Of a stretch of DNA of 64,000 nucleotides, positions 19,912-32,557 are shown one piece after another (position 1 is the first letter of the stretch; each line of letters begins with the position of its first letter). Source of the DNA: Gammaproteobacteria bacterium (GTDB lineage: Bacteria > Pseudomonadota > Gammaproteobacteria > SURF-13); NCBI GenBank assembly GCA_030680605.1, contig JAUXUQ010000001.1, positions 62,001-126,000 of the forward strand, written 5' to 3'. Made by a program: the position numbers and the translations under genes. A model generated the notes under the pieces. The model was not told the DNA's origin. It made no database searches and saw only the letters and a list, made by a program, of their open reading frames with translations.

Positions 19912-21249
19912 ATGAGCAAGATATCACGACGCGATTTTGTAAAATTGACGGGTGCTGCAATAGCTGCGGTGGGAATGGGTGGTCACGCAGCACAGGTAGA
20001 AGCGGCCCCGAAATCGGCCGCCGTGGTGCGCACCAAGGCCTATCTGCCAAAACCCAAAGGCCCGCGGGTAGTGGTAATCGGTGCGGGTACCGCCGGGTTA
20101 ACCATAGCCAAATATCTCAAAAAGGAAAATGCCAAGCTGGATGTCGTGGTGGTGGAAAAACGTGCGATGTACAGCTCCTGTTTTTCCAGCAATCTGTGGT
20201 ATTCGGGCGTCATCAATCTTGAGTTTCTCGCCGGGCACAGCTTTCTCGACGCGGCCAGAAATGGCGGCTACATCTTTTTCAGTGCCACCTGTACCGGCGT
20301 GGATCGCAGCGCGCGCAAGGTATACACCGACCAGGGCGAGATCAGCTACGATTATCTGGTGCTGGCGCCTGGCATAGATTACGACTACACTCGTATTGGC
20401 ATCAAGGATCCGGAAACCGAATATCGCCTGCGTACCGAGCATCCGGCAGGCTGGATGATGGGTACCGAACACGTTTCGATCAAACACAAGATCGAAACCT
20501 TCAAGGGCGGGATTTTTGTGCAGACCGTGCCCAGCGGAAACTTCCGCTGCAAGCCCGCGCCGTATGAGCGTGCCTGCATGATTGCGTCTTACTTCAAACA
20601 GCACAAGATCAAGGGTAAGGTGCTGTTGCTGGATCACAATCCCGATATCGCAGTCAAGAAAGCAGGCTTCCGCGCTGCGTTTGATGACCTGTACAAGGGC
20701 TATATAGACTATGTTCCTTCGGTCAATATCACCGGCGTGAATGCGGACACGAAAACCATTGAAACCGAATTTGACTCCTACCCGTTTGATGCGGCGGCGA
20801 TTTACCCCGGGGTGCGTGCCTCCATGCTGATTGAGGTAGCAGGCCTGGTAGATCCCAAGAGCCCGCAAAAGGAAGCGAACATTGATGTGCTGAAATACCA
20901 CGTGCCGGGTGACCCGCGCGTGTACGTGGCTGGCGACAGCCGGCCGATGGGTTTCCCCAAGAGTGCGCATCTCGCCAACAGTGAAGGCAAATACGTGGCC
21001 AAGGTCATTGCCGCGCATGAAGCAGGCAAGGTGATTGACTGGGCCAGCCCTGCCAGCGTGTGCTACTCGCTGGTGAATACCGAACCGAACGAGGCGATCA
21101 GTATGTGGGTGAGCTACAATTACGATGAGGCTACCAAGGCCTTCAGCCCGGCCAAGGACAGTACCGGCACGGATGAATCGCGCGACCCTGCCAAGGGCGG
21201 AGCCGCGCTTGATTGGGCGCAGACGTTGTACGCTGACATGTTTACCTGA
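19912..21249 (+). CDS. Flavocytochrome c-sulfide dehydrogenase flavoprotein (FccB/SoxF family)
   Basis: This is a periplasmic FAD enzyme that oxidises sulfide to sulfur and passes electrons to a c-type cytochrome. It has a Tat signal (SRRDFVKLTGAAIAAVGMGG), a Rossmann FAD motif VIGAGTAGLTIA (about 56), and a CFSSN motif (Cys90) matching the Cys that binds FAD covalently in FccB. FRCKPAPYERA (Cys212) and VCYSLV (Cys384) correspond to the redox disulfide pair. A FCSD C-terminal domain completes it. No cytochrome subunit gene is adjacent, so the electron acceptor must be elsewhere. A 29-residue membrane peptide gene follows by 12 bases. Confidence 0.93.
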   Translation: MSKISRRDFVKLTGAAIAAVGMGGHAAQVEAAPKSAAVVRTKAYLPKPKGPRVVVIGAGTAGLTIAKYLKKENAKLDVVVVEKRAMYSSCFSSNLWYSGVINLEFLAGHSFLDAARNGGYIFFSATCTGVDRSARKVYTDQGEISYDYLVLAPGIDYDYTRIGIKDPETEYRLRTEHPAGWMMGTEHVSIKHKIETFKGGIFVQTVPSGNFRCKPAPYERACMIASYFKQHKIKGKVLLLDHNPDIAVKKAGFRAAFDDLYKGYIDYVPSVNITGVNADTKTIETEFDSYPFDAAAIYPGVRASMLIEVAGLVDPKSPQKEANIDVLKYHVPGDPRVYVAGDSRPMGFPKSAHLANSEGKYVAKVIAAHEAGKVIDWASPASVCYSLVNTEPNEAISMWVSYNYDEATKAFSPAKDSTGTDESRDPAKGGAALDWAQTLYADMFT

Positions 21250-21261
21250 GGAGTGGATGTT

Positions 21262-21351
21262 ATGGATTTGACCTGGATAATGTTTGGTGTACTTGGGCTG
21301 GTGCTGTTTCTTGCCTTCCTGGTTTCGGTATTATTTCCGGGCAAACAATAA
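21262..21351 (+). CDS. 29-residue single-span membrane peptide downstream of the sulfide dehydrogenase
   Basis: The frame starts at ATG 21262 and ends at TAA 21349-21351. A strong GAGGAG lies eight bases upstream. The peptide begins MDLTWIMFGVLGLV, continues as one hydrophobic helix and ends FPGKQ. Length and shape resemble KdpF-like small subunits, but no kdp gene is present. Because it follows the flavoprotein by 12 bases, it may anchor or assist that enzyme or its cytochrome partner. The function is unknown. Confidence 0.7.
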   Translation: MDLTWIMFGVLGLVLFLAFLVSVLFPGKQ

Positions 21352-23880: not shown

Positions 23881-23920
23881 GTAAATTGCTCTTAACTTAT
23901 TGGAGGGAGTTAACACCATC

Positions 23921-24337
23921 ATGGCTAAAGCAAAAAAGACAGCAGCTAAGAAAACGAAAGCTAAGAAAGCAGCAACCAAAGCCAAGAAGAAAGTAGTGAA
24001 GAGGCGCGGACGCCCAACCGCCAAGAAGAAGACAACAGTGAAGGCTGCGCGCGCCAAACTCAAGGCCGCCAAGCTGAAGCTTGAGAAGCGGATAGCCGCC
24101 AAGAAGCGGGCCGCCGAAGTAAAGGCCAAAAAGGCCGAGCGTCGTGCCAAACAAGTAGCCGCCAAGGCCGCTGCGCGCATCAAGGCCGCCAAGGCCAAGG
24201 CCGTAGCCGCCTTCGCCAGCAAATGGGAGCGTGCCTACGCCAAAAAACAGGCCGCAGCCCGTCGTGCCGCCCGCCGTGCAGCCGCCAAGCGCAGAAAAAT
24301 GGCGCGTGCTGCCCGCCGCGCTGCCCGCCTCGGCTAA
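23921..24337 (+). CDS. Lysine/alanine-rich histone H1-like DNA-binding protein
   Basis: The 138-residue protein is made almost entirely of Lys, Ala and Arg with KKxAAKK-type repeats, as in bacterial H1-like and AlgP-type proteins. It starts MAKAKKTAAKKTKAKK and contains an AT-hook-like KRRGRPTAKK near residue 30. Such proteins bind DNA non-specifically or act as regulators. The ATG at 23921 has a strong GGAGGGA site. Base use is shifted by the lysine content, not by transfer. It has its own promoter and no operon partner. Confidence 0.85.
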   Translation: MAKAKKTAAKKTKAKKAATKAKKKVVKRRGRPTAKKKTTVKAARAKLKAAKLKLEKRIAAKKRAAEVKAKKAERRAKQVAAKAAARIKAAKAKAVAAFASKWERAYAKKQAAARRAARRAAAKRRKMARAARRAARLG

Positions 24338-27049: not shown

Positions 27050-29494
27050 ATGATGAAGAAAGAAAAACTGGTGTTGATCGGTAATGGCATGGCGGGGGTG
27101 CGCACGCTGGAAGAGATGCTCAAGCTCGCGCCGGACAAATATGAAATCAGCGTATTTGGGGCCGAGCCCTACGGCAACTATAACCGCATTCTGCTTTCCC
27201 CCGTGCTGGCCGGAGAGAAAACCCTGCCTGAGATCATGCTGAACGATCGGCCATGGTATGCGGAGCACGGCATTACCCTGCATGCAGGAAAAAATGTGGT
27301 GGAGATAGACCGCAGCAAGCATCGGGTACGTGCCGCCGATGGCACGACAGCACAGTATGACCGCTTGCTGCTCGCCACCGGCTCCAATCCGTTCATGATT
27401 CCGGTGCCGGGGCATGACCTGCCCGGTGTCGTGACCTTTCGCGATATCCACGATGTAGAGTTGATGACCGCTGCGGCAAAAGACTATCAGCATGCGGTGG
27501 TCATAGGTGGCGGACTGCTCGGTCTGGAAGCCGCCAACGGGCTGATGCGCCAGGGCATGAGTGTGACCGTGGTGCATATCAACGACACGCTGATGGAGCG
27601 GCAGCTGGACAGGAACGCCGGGTTGTTGCTGCGCAAGTCGCTGGAGCAGCGCGGTATGCACTTCCACATGCCTGCCCAAACCGTTGAGATCATGGGTGAG
27701 GAACGGGTGCGTGGGGTGCGCTTCAAGGATGGCAGCGAATTGTATGCCGATCTGGTCGTGATGGCCGTGGGCATCCGGCCCAATATTGAACTGGCGCAGA
27801 AATCCGGCATTTACTGCGAACGCGGCATTGTGGTGAATGACACCCTGCAAACCTATGACCCGGCAGTGTATGCCGTAGGCGAGTGTGTGCAGCACCGCGG
27901 TCAGAGCTACGGGCTGGTCGCACCCCTGTTTGAGCAGGCCAAGGTGTGCGCCAATCACCTCGCCCATCTCGGCTATGCGCGTTACGAAGGTTCGGTCACC
28001 TCCACCAAACTCAAGGTGACAGGCATCGATTTATTCTCCGCCGGCGACTTTACCGGCGACGAGCACAGTGAGGAGATCGTGCTCAAGGACGCCTCGCAGG
28101 GCACCTACAAGAAAGTAGTGGTACGTGATAACCGCATCCAGGGCGCCGTCATGTACGGCGACACCGTCGATGGCGCCTGGTATTTCCAGCTCATGCGCGA
28201 CGGCACCGACATCGGTGCCTTCCGTGATCAGCTCATGTTTGGCCAGGCCCATCTCGGTGACGCGGGCCATGGCGGCCAGAACAAGGCCGCGGCCATGAGT
28301 GATGCCATGGAGGTCTGCGGTTGCAACGGCGTCTGCAAGGGCACCATCGTCAAGGCCATCAGCGAAAAGGGATTGTTCACGCTGGAAGAGGTGCGCGCCC
28401 ACACCAAGGCCTCATCCTCCTGCGGCTCCTGCACCGGCCTGGTCGAGCAGATCATGGCCTCGGTGCTGGGCGGTGGCTACAGCGCAGCGCCCAAGGAAAA
28501 GCCGTTGTGCAAGTGCACGGAACATACCCATGATGAGGTGCGGGCTGTTATCCGCGAGCAACACCTGCTCAACATCAATGCGGTGATGCGCTACTTTGAG
28601 TGGGGCACGCCGGATGGCTGTCACCAGTGTCGCCCGGCGCTCAATTATTACCTGCTATGTGCCTGGCCGGCGGAATACCAGGACGATCCACAGTCGCGTT
28701 TCATCAACGAGCGCGTACACGCCAATATCCAGAAAGACGGTACCTATTCCGTGGTGCCACGCATGTGGGGGGGTGTGACTACGTCGAATGAGTTGCGCAC
28801 CATCGCTGATGTGGTCGACAAGTTCAAGATACCCACCGTCAAGGTCACCGGTGGTCAGCGCATCGATTTGCTGGGGGTGAAAAAGGAAGACCTGCCCGCC
28901 GTTTGGGGCGATCTCAACAAGGGCGGCCTGGTCTCCGGCCATGCCTATGGCAAGGCGCTGCGCACCGTCAAAACCTGTGTCGGCAAGGAGTGGTGCCGTT
29001 TCGGCACCCAGGACTCGACCGCCATGGGCGTGCGTCTGGAGCACCGTACCTGGGGTTCGTGGATGCCGCACAAATTCAAGATGGCGGTGTCGGGTTGTCC
29101 GCGCAACTGTGCCGAGGCCACGATCAAGGATTTTGGCATCGTCGCTGTTGACTCCGGTTGGGAGCTGCACGTCGGTGGTAATGGCGGCGTGAAGATACGG
29201 CCGACCGATTTGCTGTGCAAGGTGGTGACAGAAGACGAGGTCGAGGAATACTGCTGTGCCTTTATCCAGCTTTACCGCGAAGAGGCGCGTTATCTCGATC
29301 GCACCGCACCGTGGATCGAGCGTGTCGGTCTCGCCTATGTCAAACAGCGCGTAGTAGAGGATGGCGAGGGCCGCAAGCATTTGTATCAGCGCTTTATCGA
29401 GTCACAGAAATATGCCCAGGTCGATCCGTGGGCCGAACGCGCACAAGGTGAGGCCGACCGCCACGAATACATCCCGCTGAAGCAGGTGGTGTGA
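27050..29494 (+). CDS. nirB: Assimilatory nitrite reductase [NAD(P)H] large subunit
   Basis: NirB reduces nitrite to ammonium in the cytoplasm using NAD(P)H, FAD, Fe-S and siroheme. Domains in order: FAD/NAD-binding pyridine nucleotide reductase (LVLIGNGMAGVRTLEEM; second Rossmann VVIGGGLLGLEAANGL), a BFD-type [2Fe-2S] domain near 420 (CGCNGVCKG and SSCGSCTG), and the siroheme reductase half with GKEWCRFG near 647 and SGCPRNC near 682. At 814 aa the length is normal. ATG 27050 and ATG 27053 are both possible starts. nirD, nasA and a transporter follow in a tight operon. Confidence 0.96.
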   Translation: MMKKEKLVLIGNGMAGVRTLEEMLKLAPDKYEISVFGAEPYGNYNRILLSPVLAGEKTLPEIMLNDRPWYAEHGITLHAGKNVVEIDRSKHRVRAADGTTAQYDRLLLATGSNPFMIPVPGHDLPGVVTFRDIHDVELMTAAAKDYQHAVVIGGGLLGLEAANGLMRQGMSVTVVHINDTLMERQLDRNAGLLLRKSLEQRGMHFHMPAQTVEIMGEERVRGVRFKDGSELYADLVVMAVGIRPNIELAQKSGIYCERGIVVNDTLQTYDPAVYAVGECVQHRGQSYGLVAPLFEQAKVCANHLAHLGYARYEGSVTSTKLKVTGIDLFSAGDFTGDEHSEEIVLKDASQGTYKKVVVRDNRIQGAVMYGDTVDGAWYFQLMRDGTDIGAFRDQLMFGQAHLGDAGHGGQNKAAAMSDAMEVCGCNGVCKGTIVKAISEKGLFTLEEVRAHTKASSSCGSCTGLVEQIMASVLGGGYSAAPKEKPLCKCTEHTHDEVRAVIREQHLLNINAVMRYFEWGTPDGCHQCRPALNYYLLCAWPAEYQDDPQSRFINERVHANIQKDGTYSVVPRMWGGVTTSNELRTIADVVDKFKIPTVKVTGGQRIDLLGVKKEDLPAVWGDLNKGGLVSGHAYGKALRTVKTCVGKEWCRFGTQDSTAMGVRLEHRTWGSWMPHKFKMAVSGCPRNCAEATIKDFGIVAVDSGWELHVGGNGGVKIRPTDLLCKVVTEDEVEEYCCAFIQLYREEARYLDRTAPWIERVGLAYVKQRVVEDGEGRKHLYQRFIESQKYAQVDPWAERAQGEADRHEYIPLKQVV

Positions 29495-29832
29495 TGCCTG
29501 CCTCCAGCATTGCTGAACCACAGTGGATCGAAGTCGGGCAACTCGACGACATTCCGCGCCGGGGTTCGCGGGTCATACGCACCGTGCAGGGCGATATCGC
29601 ACTGTTTCGTACCGCCGGCGATCAGGTGTTTGCCTTGCGCGATGCCTGTCCACACAAAGGTGGCCCGCTGTCGCAGGGTATTGTGCATGGCACCCGCGTC
29701 ACCTGCCCGTTGCACAACTGGATCATTGATCTGAACGACGGTACCGCCGCTGCCCCGGATCAAGGCCAGACCGCCTGCTACCCGGTCAAGGTCGAACACA
29801 GCATGATCAGCATAGCGTTGCAGCATGCCTGA
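29494..29832 (+). CDS. nirD: Nitrite reductase small subunit (Rieske-type)
   Basis: NirD partners NirB. It carries a Rieske-like fold with CPH (Cys52, His54) and CPLH (Cys71, His74), GGPLSQGIVHG between them, and DLNDGTAAAP after. All four ligands are kept here, unlike enterobacterial NirD proteins that lack them. The ATG at 29494 overlaps the last base of nirB's stop (TGATG). nasA starts eight bases before its end, so the operon is translationally coupled. Confidence 0.94.
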   Translation: MPASSIAEPQWIEVGQLDDIPRRGSRVIRTVQGDIALFRTAGDQVFALRDACPHKGGPLSQGIVHGTRVTCPLHNWIIDLNDGTAAAPDQGQTACYPVKVEHSMISIALQHA

Positions 29833-32557
29833 GCGTGCCACCCAGGCGCGCAGCGTCAAAACCACCTGCCCGTACTGTGGCGTGGGTTGTGGCATCGTGG
29901 CCAGCACTATGGCGCCGGATGACGTACACATCAGTGGTGACACGGCTCACCCCGCCAACAAGGGGCGGTTGTGCTCCAAGGGTGCGGCGCTGGGCGAGAC
30001 GCTGGCGCTGGACGATCGGCTGCTGTACCCGGAGGTGGAGGGAAAACGCTGTTCCTGGGGTACGGCATTCAATGTCGTTGCGCAGCAGTTTCTGCGCGTC
30101 ATTGCCGAGCATGGTCCCGATGCCGTGGCGTTTTATGTCTCCGGCCAACTGCTGACCGAAGATTATTACGTCGCCAACAAATTGATGAAGGGTTTTATCG
30201 GCTCCGCCAACATCGACACCAACTCACGCTTGTGCATGGCCTCCAGCGTTGCCGGTCACAAGCGCGCCTTCGGCAGCGACAGCGTGCCGGGTTGCTACGA
30301 AGATCTGGAGCAGGCCGAGCTGATCGTGCTGGTGGGATCCAATGCCGCCTGGTGTCATCCGGTATTGTTTCAGCGCGCAACGGCCGCCGGATGCGAACAT
30401 CCGGCGCCGAAAATAATTGTCATCGACCCCCGCCGCACAGCAACCTGTGACGGCGCCGCTCTGCATCTTGCAGTAAAGCCCGGCACCGACGCGGTGTTGT
30501 TCAATGGCCTGCTGCAGTATTTGCATGCGCACGGCCATGCCCGCAGCGATTACCTGCAAGCGCATACCGAGGGTGTCGAGCCCGCGCTGCAAGCGGCGCG
30601 CGACAGTGCCGGGGATGCGGCCACCGTAGCGGAAAAATGCAATCTGGACCGCGCTGACGTCACGTGCTTTTTTGAGCTGTTTGCGAACACCGAAAAGGCA
30701 GTCACCGTCTATTCCCAGGGCATTAACCAGTCCTCCAGCGGCACCGACAAGGTCAACGCCATCATCAACTGCCATCTCCTGACCGGCCGCATCGGCCGGC
30801 CGGGCATGGGGCCACTGTCCTTCACCGGTCAGCCCAACGCCATGGGCGGGCGCGAGGTTGGCGGTCTGGCCAATCAGTTGGCGGCACACATGGAGCTGGA
30901 AAACCCCGTGCACCGTGAGCGGGTACAGCGCTTCTGGAATGCCCCGCGCATGGCAGCCCGGCCCGGCTTGAAAGCAGTAGACATGTTTCGTGCCGTGGGC
31001 GAGGGGCGCATCAAGGCCATCTGGATCATGGCCACCAACCCGGTGGACAGCATGCCGGATGCCGACGCGGTGCGGGAGGCGCTCAAGCGCTGCGAGCTGG
31101 TGGTGGTGTCCGATTGTGTACGCCATACCGACACCACCGCGCTGGCGCATGTGTTGTTGCCCGCCCTGGCCTGGGGGGAAAAAGACGGTACCGTGACCAA
31201 CTCGGAACGACGCATCTCGCGGCAACGCGCATTTCTGCCTGCACCCGGCGAGGCCAGGCCCGACTGGTGGATCATCAGTGAGGTCGCCAGGCGCCTGGGT
31301 TATCACGAGGCGTTTCGCTACAACCACAGCGCCGATGTGTTTTTTGAGCACGCCGCCTTGTCGGGGTTTGAGAACGACGGCGAACGCACCTTTGATATTT
31401 CCGGCCTGCACTTCAGTACGGTCTCGGCCTACGACGCCCTGCAACCGATACAGTGGCCGGTCGTGCGCACAGACGATGGCAGGATACAAGGCACCGCCCG
31501 CCTGTTCGGTGAGGGCCGCTTCGCTACCCCTAACCAAAAGGCCCGTTTTATTGCGGTTCTGCCGCGCCCGCCACAGGTTGCCACGAACGACGAGTTCCCG
31601 CTGGTGCTGAACACCGGTCGCGTGCGCGATCACTGGCACACCCTGACCCGCACCGGTAAATCCCCCCGGTTGTCGAACCACAGCTACGAACCCTGTGCCG
31701 AACTGCATCCGGACGATGCGGCAGCCCTCGGTGTGCAACACAACGCGCTGACCCGGATCACCAGTGGCCGGGGCGAGGTGGTGGTGCGGGCCGTACTCAC
31801 ACCCACACAGCAAAAAGGCAGTGTCTTCGTGCCCATGCACTGGACCGATCAGTTTGCCCGCCAGGCGCGGATCGATACGCTGGTGAATCCGGTCGTGGAT
31901 CCGATCTCGGGCCAGCCCGAGTCCAAACATACCCCGGTGCGTGCCACTCCTTACCGCCCGGCGTGGCACGGCTTTCTGTTGTCCCGCCGCGAACTGCCGG
32001 TCAACGACGCCCGTTATTGGGTGCGGGCGCGCGGGCAGGGGCTGTGGCGTTATGAACTGGCCGGTGAGCAGCTGCCGCCAGACTGGTCGGTGTGGGCGCG
32101 TGACGTGTTGTGCATGCCCAAGGATCACGCCGACGACAAGGTGGAATGGATCGACTATCTCGACAGTGGCGCACAGCGCTACCGCGGGGCACGCCTGCTC
32201 AATCGTCGTATTGAGAGCTGTCTGTTTGTGGCGCCGACACCCGAGCTGCCTTCGCGCTCATGGCTGATGGGCCTGTTTGCACAAACAGACGAACTCTCGG
32301 CGCAGGAGCGCAGCAATCTGCTGGCCGCACGCGCCACGCTGGCCGAAGACACCGGGCCGATCGTGTGTGCCTGCTTCAGTGTCGGACGCAATACCCTGCT
32401 GCAGGCCATCCAGAACGAAGGCCTGCGCACCGCCGAAGCGATTGGAAACAGGCTCAAGGCGGGTACCAATTGCGGTTCGTGCATCCCGGAGCTGAAAGCC
32501 CTGATTGCACAGACTGGCAACAACCCTGTTGTTTCACCATCATCCATGGAGTTGTAA
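29825..32557 (+). CDS. nasA: Assimilatory nitrate reductase, molybdenum catalytic subunit
   Basis: The enzyme reduces nitrate to nitrite in the cytoplasm. The N-terminal 4Fe-4S site is CPYCGVGC (Cys15, Cys18, Cys22) with RLCSKG (Cys50). The molybdopterin domains contain SNAAWCHPVLF, GTDKVNAIINCHLLTGRIGRPGMGP and ATNPVDSMPD, and the C-terminal dinucleotide-binding domain has NTGRVRDHWHT. A BFD-like [2Fe-2S] domain ends the protein (CACFSVGRNT and NCGSC near 848-882), as in the NasA type. No Tat signal is present. At 910 aa it fits that group. Confidence 0.96.
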   Translation: MPERATQARSVKTTCPYCGVGCGIVASTMAPDDVHISGDTAHPANKGRLCSKGAALGETLALDDRLLYPEVEGKRCSWGTAFNVVAQQFLRVIAEHGPDAVAFYVSGQLLTEDYYVANKLMKGFIGSANIDTNSRLCMASSVAGHKRAFGSDSVPGCYEDLEQAELIVLVGSNAAWCHPVLFQRATAAGCEHPAPKIIVIDPRRTATCDGAALHLAVKPGTDAVLFNGLLQYLHAHGHARSDYLQAHTEGVEPALQAARDSAGDAATVAEKCNLDRADVTCFFELFANTEKAVTVYSQGINQSSSGTDKVNAIINCHLLTGRIGRPGMGPLSFTGQPNAMGGREVGGLANQLAAHMELENPVHRERVQRFWNAPRMAARPGLKAVDMFRAVGEGRIKAIWIMATNPVDSMPDADAVREALKRCELVVVSDCVRHTDTTALAHVLLPALAWGEKDGTVTNSERRISRQRAFLPAPGEARPDWWIISEVARRLGYHEAFRYNHSADVFFEHAALSGFENDGERTFDISGLHFSTVSAYDALQPIQWPVVRTDDGRIQGTARLFGEGRFATPNQKARFIAVLPRPPQVATNDEFPLVLNTGRVRDHWHTLTRTGKSPRLSNHSYEPCAELHPDDAAALGVQHNALTRITSGRGEVVVRAVLTPTQQKGSVFVPMHWTDQFARQARIDTLVNPVVDPISGQPESKHTPVRATPYRPAWHGFLLSRRELPVNDARYWVRARGQGLWRYELAGEQLPPDWSVWARDVLCMPKDHADDKVEWIDYLDSGAQRYRGARLLNRRIESCLFVAPTPELPSRSWLMGLFAQTDELSAQERSNLLAARATLAEDTGPIVCACFSVGRNTLLQAIQNEGLRTAEAIGNRLKAGTNCGSCIPELKALIAQTGNNPVVSPSSMEL

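Follow-up and report, generated by a model that had tools for sequence, protein, structure and literature searches.

The closest described relatives of the system reported here are the flavocytochrome c sulfide dehydrogenases (FCSDs), in which an FccB flavoprotein forms a heterodimer with an FccA cytochrome. In FccB of A. vinosum, Cys42 is linked to flavin adenine dinucleotide (FAD) and Cys161 and Cys337 form the redox pair, as given in excerpts of PMC3504083. A recombinant flavoprotein from the Aquificota, DhsU1, reduced horse-heart cytochrome c when purified alone, indicating that it needs no cytochrome subunit of its own (PMC3504083, in part). We identified a gene for an FccB-type flavoprotein in a 64-kb stretch of DNA from a Gammaproteobacteria bacterium (SURF-13 lineage, contig JAUXUQ010000001.1, positions 62,001 to 126,000), the whole of which is referred to as the window. 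The flavoprotein gene is adjoined by neither a cytochrome gene nor a gene for a Rieske-like protein, and is followed by a gene for a 29-residue membrane peptide, an arrangement conserved in all six genomes compared from one family of uncultured sulfur-metabolizing bacteria. The features of the locus are the following.

19912..21249, + strand: FccB-type sulfide dehydrogenase flavoprotein gene, 445 amino acids (Pfam domains, PDB relatives, orthologues)
19915..20007, + strand: predicted twin-arginine signal region (SRRDFVKL...AQVEAA), from twin-arginine translocation (Tat) models; the exact cleavage site is inferred
20179..20181, + strand: codon of Cys90, equivalent to the FAD-linked Cys42 (alignment to 1fcd; invariant in the six peptide-linked flavoproteins)
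20548..20550, + strand: codon of Cys213, equivalent to redox Cys161 (alignment; invariant in all 90 flavoproteins compared)
21061..21063, + strand: codon of Cys384, equivalent to redox Cys337 (alignment; Cys in all 90 flavoproteins but one, which has a gap)
21247..21256, + strand: purine-rich ribosome-binding region of the peptide gene, TGAGGAGTGG, overlapping the flavoprotein stop codon (sequence)
21262..21351, + strand: gene for a 29-residue single-helix membrane peptide (conserved in all six family genomes; substitution pattern of a coding gene; hydropathy)

A Small Membrane Peptide Gene Conserved Next to the Flavoprotein Gene

The peptide frame starts with an ATG at 21262, 12 bases downstream of the flavoprotein gene, and ends with a stop codon at 21349-21351; it encodes MDLTWIMFGVLGLVLFLAFLVSVLFPGKQ, with a strongest 19-residue hydropathy of 2.87. 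The frame was compared across six genomes of one family (G000 to G005, G000 being the genome of the window), which represent three genera; one genome is only 76% complete and four are known to be metagenome-assembled. A hydrophobic frame of 27-29 codons follows the flavoprotein gene by 3-21 bases in each of the six, and in the relatives, too, purines are concentrated upstream of it at about the equivalent position. All six peptides are hydrophobic across one helix length, and residues M1, D2, T4, M7, A18, S22, and G27 are invariant in their alignment.

Nucleotide differences in the peptide gene concentrate at third codon positions. The ratio of nonsynonymous to synonymous differences per site (pN/pS) was 0.23 for G000/G001 and 0.09 for G003/G005, and reached 0.5-0.9 in comparisons across the family's two halves, which show many synonymous differences. 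Nucleotide identity fell from 0.69 within the open reading frame (ORF) to 0.12 just past the stop codon for G000/G001 and from 0.88 to 0.26 for G003/G005; the distant pair G000/G003 showed little contrast (0.49 in the ORF vs. 0.43 after the stop). A chance ORF was rejected on the basis of the shared position in all six genomes, the coding-type substitution and the loss of identity after the stop. An earlier note on this DNA had pointed to a small gene 12 bases on with a strong ribosome site, and the comparison of sequences identifies it as a real gene; frameshifts among relatives were looked for as well, and the outcome favors a gene.

The genes beyond the peptide vary: the window has galU there, G001 and G002 have a glycosyltransferase-like gene, and G003 to G005 have unrelated ORFs. 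Because the downstream genes differ while the pair persists, the peptide is tied to the flavoprotein and not to the gene that follows, and a role as leader peptide of the next gene is disfavored for the same reason. On the upstream side, G004 carries a peroxiredoxin-like gene (L006, 658-1308) between an nth-like gene and the flavoprotein gene. Elsewhere in the window, 23900-24337 holds a lysine- and alanine-rich histone-H1-like frame.

The peptide is single-copy in each of the four family genomes that were scanned whole. When 369 genomes of the same class were searched with a profile of the peptide, matches at E below 1e-14 came from family genomes only; the others were weak and mostly located within larger frames. 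A hidden Markov model run across all fetched FCSD loci recovered the family copies at E below 1e-14 and no further copies, the next best match (0.001) lying inside a 433-residue frame. The expectation that similar frames would follow FCSD genes holds within one family, in which close homologs have the frame downstream, but not for sulfur oxidizers in general, and the arrangement is so far confined to this family. No Pfam family matched the peptide, and a weak NCBIfam match to Phr_nterm, at 13.9 bits against a cut-off of 25, was attributed to chance. A literature search found no paper on an FCSD with a small membrane protein, nor on SURF-13.

The Flavoprotein Retains the Active Site Cysteines of FccB

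Pfam searches with the flavoprotein detected FCSD_central (92 bits, cut-off 27) and FCSD-flav_bind (32.1 bits, cut-off 26), and the nearest PDB structures are the FccB chains 5n1t, 3vrd, and 1fcd. The protein is 67-85% identical to its orthologs in the five other family genomes. Its Tat signal scored above the cut-off in NCBIfam TIGR01409 (22.5 bits, cut-off 16.7) and narrowly below it in Pfam TAT_signal (21.4 bits, cut-off 22.7). Active site cysteines were assigned by alignment to 1fcd and 3vrd and correspond to those of A. vinosum FccB. The FAD-linked cysteine and both redox cysteines are retained as C90, C213, and C384, in agreement with the earlier note. Its domains, cysteines and Tat signal place the flavoprotein in the FccB family, and its predicted activity is that of a sulfide:cytochrome c oxidoreductase. 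The FccAB heterodimer is absent as a gene pair.

Cytochrome and Rieske-Like Partner Genes Are Absent From the Locus

The earlier note had also remarked that no cytochrome gene is near. No c-type cytochrome gene was found in the whole window, since CxxCH motifs in its listed ORFs are limited to DnaJ. Elsewhere, the genome of the window encodes a diheme cytochrome c near cbb3-oxidase-like genes; the diheme cytochrome c encoded outside the window gives a weak partial match to FccA. A Rieske-like partner is absent from all six family genomes, while the same search found it in both control genomes. The only Rieske-domain match in the genome of the window lies at 29521-29784 beside a NirB-like gene and was read as NirD; no Rieske domain was found in G001. 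This match falls in a region (27050-32557) with NirB-like, NirD-like, and molybdopterin nitrate-reductase-like genes. From this genome content, with no Rieske partner and with a diheme cytochrome c near cbb3-oxidase-like genes, we infer that the electron acceptors are c-type cytochromes.

Regarding other genes of sulfur oxidation, DsrA gave no match above cut-off, and SoxB none above cut-off in any of the six family genomes, with a weak match in G004 only. SoxY is present in all six, and SoxZ adjoins it in the genome of the window. This SoxYZ pair (L125, 8902-9705, contig C10 of G000) occurs in a genome in which no SoxB gene was found, and its SoxY ends in NGCGN vs. the usual GGCGG.

Related Flavoproteins and Their Partner Genes

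A scan of a genome collection covering 84,980 species yielded 80 loci with related flavoproteins. A diheme cytochrome gene lies directly upstream of the flavoprotein gene in a gammaproteobacterial group, and a gene for a Rieske-like Tat protein lies downstream, often together with SoxY, in Campylobacterota, Aquificota and some Proteobacteria. In a tree of 90 proteins the six peptide-linked flavoproteins group as a single clade (100/98), and the partner labels are strongly clustered, with 15 changes vs. 40 in shuffles. Among the nearest rows outside the peptide clade are two branches linked to Rieske-like genes (L037; L045/L046) and a third that lacks both partners (L036), which suggests that the peptide-linked family probably descends from Rieske-linked ancestors; this depends on a weak inner branch (81/52) and on an uncertain root. 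L036, on a contig labeled Methylophilaceae, encodes a flavoprotein 65% identical to that of the window, adjoined by no cytochrome gene, Rieske-like gene or peptide.

The residue at the position of the FAD-linked cysteine varies among the flavoproteins outside the family. Glycine replaces it in L054, L055, L058, L059, L061, L062, L064, L066, L070-L072, L077, L088-L090, and L103; these glycine-type flavoproteins are nearly all from Campylobacterota and mostly Rieske-linked. Histidine is found at this position in four Rhodospirillales rows (L048, L068, L074, L083) and phenylalanine or leucine in three cytochrome-linked rows (L042, L047, L063). The attachment of FAD may differ in proteins with any of these four residues.

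A Possible Role of the Peptide and Alternative Explanations

The best reading, to which we give about even odds, is that the peptide is a small membrane subunit that helps to assemble the periplasmic flavoprotein or to dock it close to an electron acceptor; the earlier note had likewise suggested that it could anchor the enzyme to the membrane or link it to another acceptor. In this reading the flavoprotein and peptide genes would be a two-gene operon serving sulfide oxidation in the periplasm. The flavoprotein would fold with covalent FAD, be exported by the Tat system and, at its FAD/C213-C384 site, oxidize sulfide to zero-valent sulfur. With no gene for a dedicated cytochrome or Rieske subunit adjoining its own, it would pass its electrons to a c-type cytochrome from another locus, one candidate being the diheme cytochrome c whose gene lies close to those of the cbb3 oxidase. 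The peptide, presumably produced from the shared message by coupled translation, would contribute one membrane helix, and by binding the flavoprotein or the acceptor would assist assembly or keep the flavoprotein at the membrane beside the acceptor, a part comparable to that of CydX-type peptides in larger respiratory enzymes. This last step is suggested by the linkage, the hydrophobicity and the analogy with CydX. In favor of such a role, the gene that adjoins related flavoproteins encodes a redox partner, either a diheme cytochrome or a Rieske-like protein.

Several points weigh against it. Few residues of the peptide lie outside the membrane, which leaves little surface to bind a periplasmic protein and is the chief argument against simple anchoring. 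The six genomes belong to one family, so the pairing may have arisen once and been inherited, in which case its persistence provides little independent testing. The conserved Trp435 and the C-terminal domain of the flavoprotein reveal no new membrane-docking feature, and both expression of the peptide and its binding to the flavoprotein are predictions.

Binding to integral membrane complexes is known for many one-helix peptides, and the peptide could accordingly be a small subunit on the acceptor side, for example of a cbb3 oxidase or a membrane cytochrome, paired with the flavoprotein only for co-regulation. The genome does encode cbb3-oxidase-like genes and c-type cytochromes, but the peptide adjoins the flavoprotein in all six genomes and was seen beside no oxidase gene, and we regard this explanation as unlikely. 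It is likewise doubtful that the peptide acts as a small membrane protein in its own right, with for instance a stress or regulatory function, which shares the message by accident while a soluble flavoprotein uses a diffusible cytochrome. A linkage that traces to one event in one family would fit such independence, as would the activity of DhsU1 in vitro with soluble cytochrome c (PMC3504083, in part), yet the pair has persisted at close spacing through several changes of the neighbors farther downstream.

Readthrough of the stop codon could also add the peptide to the flavoprotein as a C-terminal membrane tail, as the peptide frame is in phase with the flavoprotein and separated from it by no intervening stop in five of the six genomes (offsets 12, 21, 21, 3, and 3). 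Because the frame is broken in G004, where the offset is 13, readthrough is disfavored; moreover, the flavoprotein stop is TAA in four genomes and the peptide has its own ATG with a purine-rich stretch upstream, which together make this explanation very improbable. The label "KdpF-like" given in the earlier note, which would make the peptide the small subunit of the Kdp potassium pump, had to be abandoned. The similar length and the single hydrophobic helix are outweighed by the searches, in which Pfam KdpF matched none of the six peptides but did match a control KdpF of the E. coli type (E 1e-6), and KdpA was found in five control genomes but in none of the six. Membership of KdpF is thus refuted, with a negligible chance left to it.

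Returning to a docking or assembly subunit, a broader and more tentative idea is that FccB-type enzymes swap electron-transfer partners and that in this family a peptide of 27-29 residues has taken the partner's place, which might give a membrane-docked enzyme that feeds a membrane acceptor directly. The locus adds a third gene pairing for sulfide dehydrogenase flavoproteins, after those with a cytochrome and with a Rieske-like protein, and this small, defined gene pair allows a tiny membrane protein to be tested as a stand-in for a whole electron-transfer subunit. Such a peptide is likely to be missed in annotation because it is below the usual gene-calling size and matches no Pfam family.

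Comparison With Known Systems

The flavoprotein of the window resembles that of FccAB (1fcd, 3vrd, 5n1t) in its FccB domain architecture, FAD-linked cysteine, redox cysteine pair and predicted Tat export, and the probable equivalent of the C-terminal tryptophan is kept. It differs in that a membrane peptide gene follows in place of an adjacent FccA cytochrome gene, in sharing only about one third identity with classical gammaproteobacterial FCSDs, and in having His, Asn or Asp aligned with the classical Tyr306. DhsU1, from a Sulfurihydrogenibium-like bacterium, has the same cysteines and is active with cytochrome c as a single protein, whereas the excerpts of PMC3504083 report no small peptide with it. 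The non-canonical fcc of Sulfurimonas pluma (PMC10066037) likewise encodes a non-canonical FCSD, proposed as a substitute for sulfide:quinone reductase, but belongs to the Campylobacterota, whose members in our set mostly show linkage to Rieske-like or SoxY genes, with Gly for the FAD-linked Cys in several. CydX-type subunits (PMC4325964, PMC6005532, both in part) are also tiny single-helix membrane proteins that serve a redox enzyme, as is proposed for the peptide; the likeness drawn here is one of proposed role. CydX (37 amino acids in E. coli) serves an integral membrane oxidase, while the peptide described here is encoded beside a periplasmic flavoprotein. Membrane attachment of an FCSD has precedent, because the FCSDs of Thiobacillus W5 and Ectothiorhodospira vacuolata are membrane-bound according to the titles of papers cited in PMC3504083.
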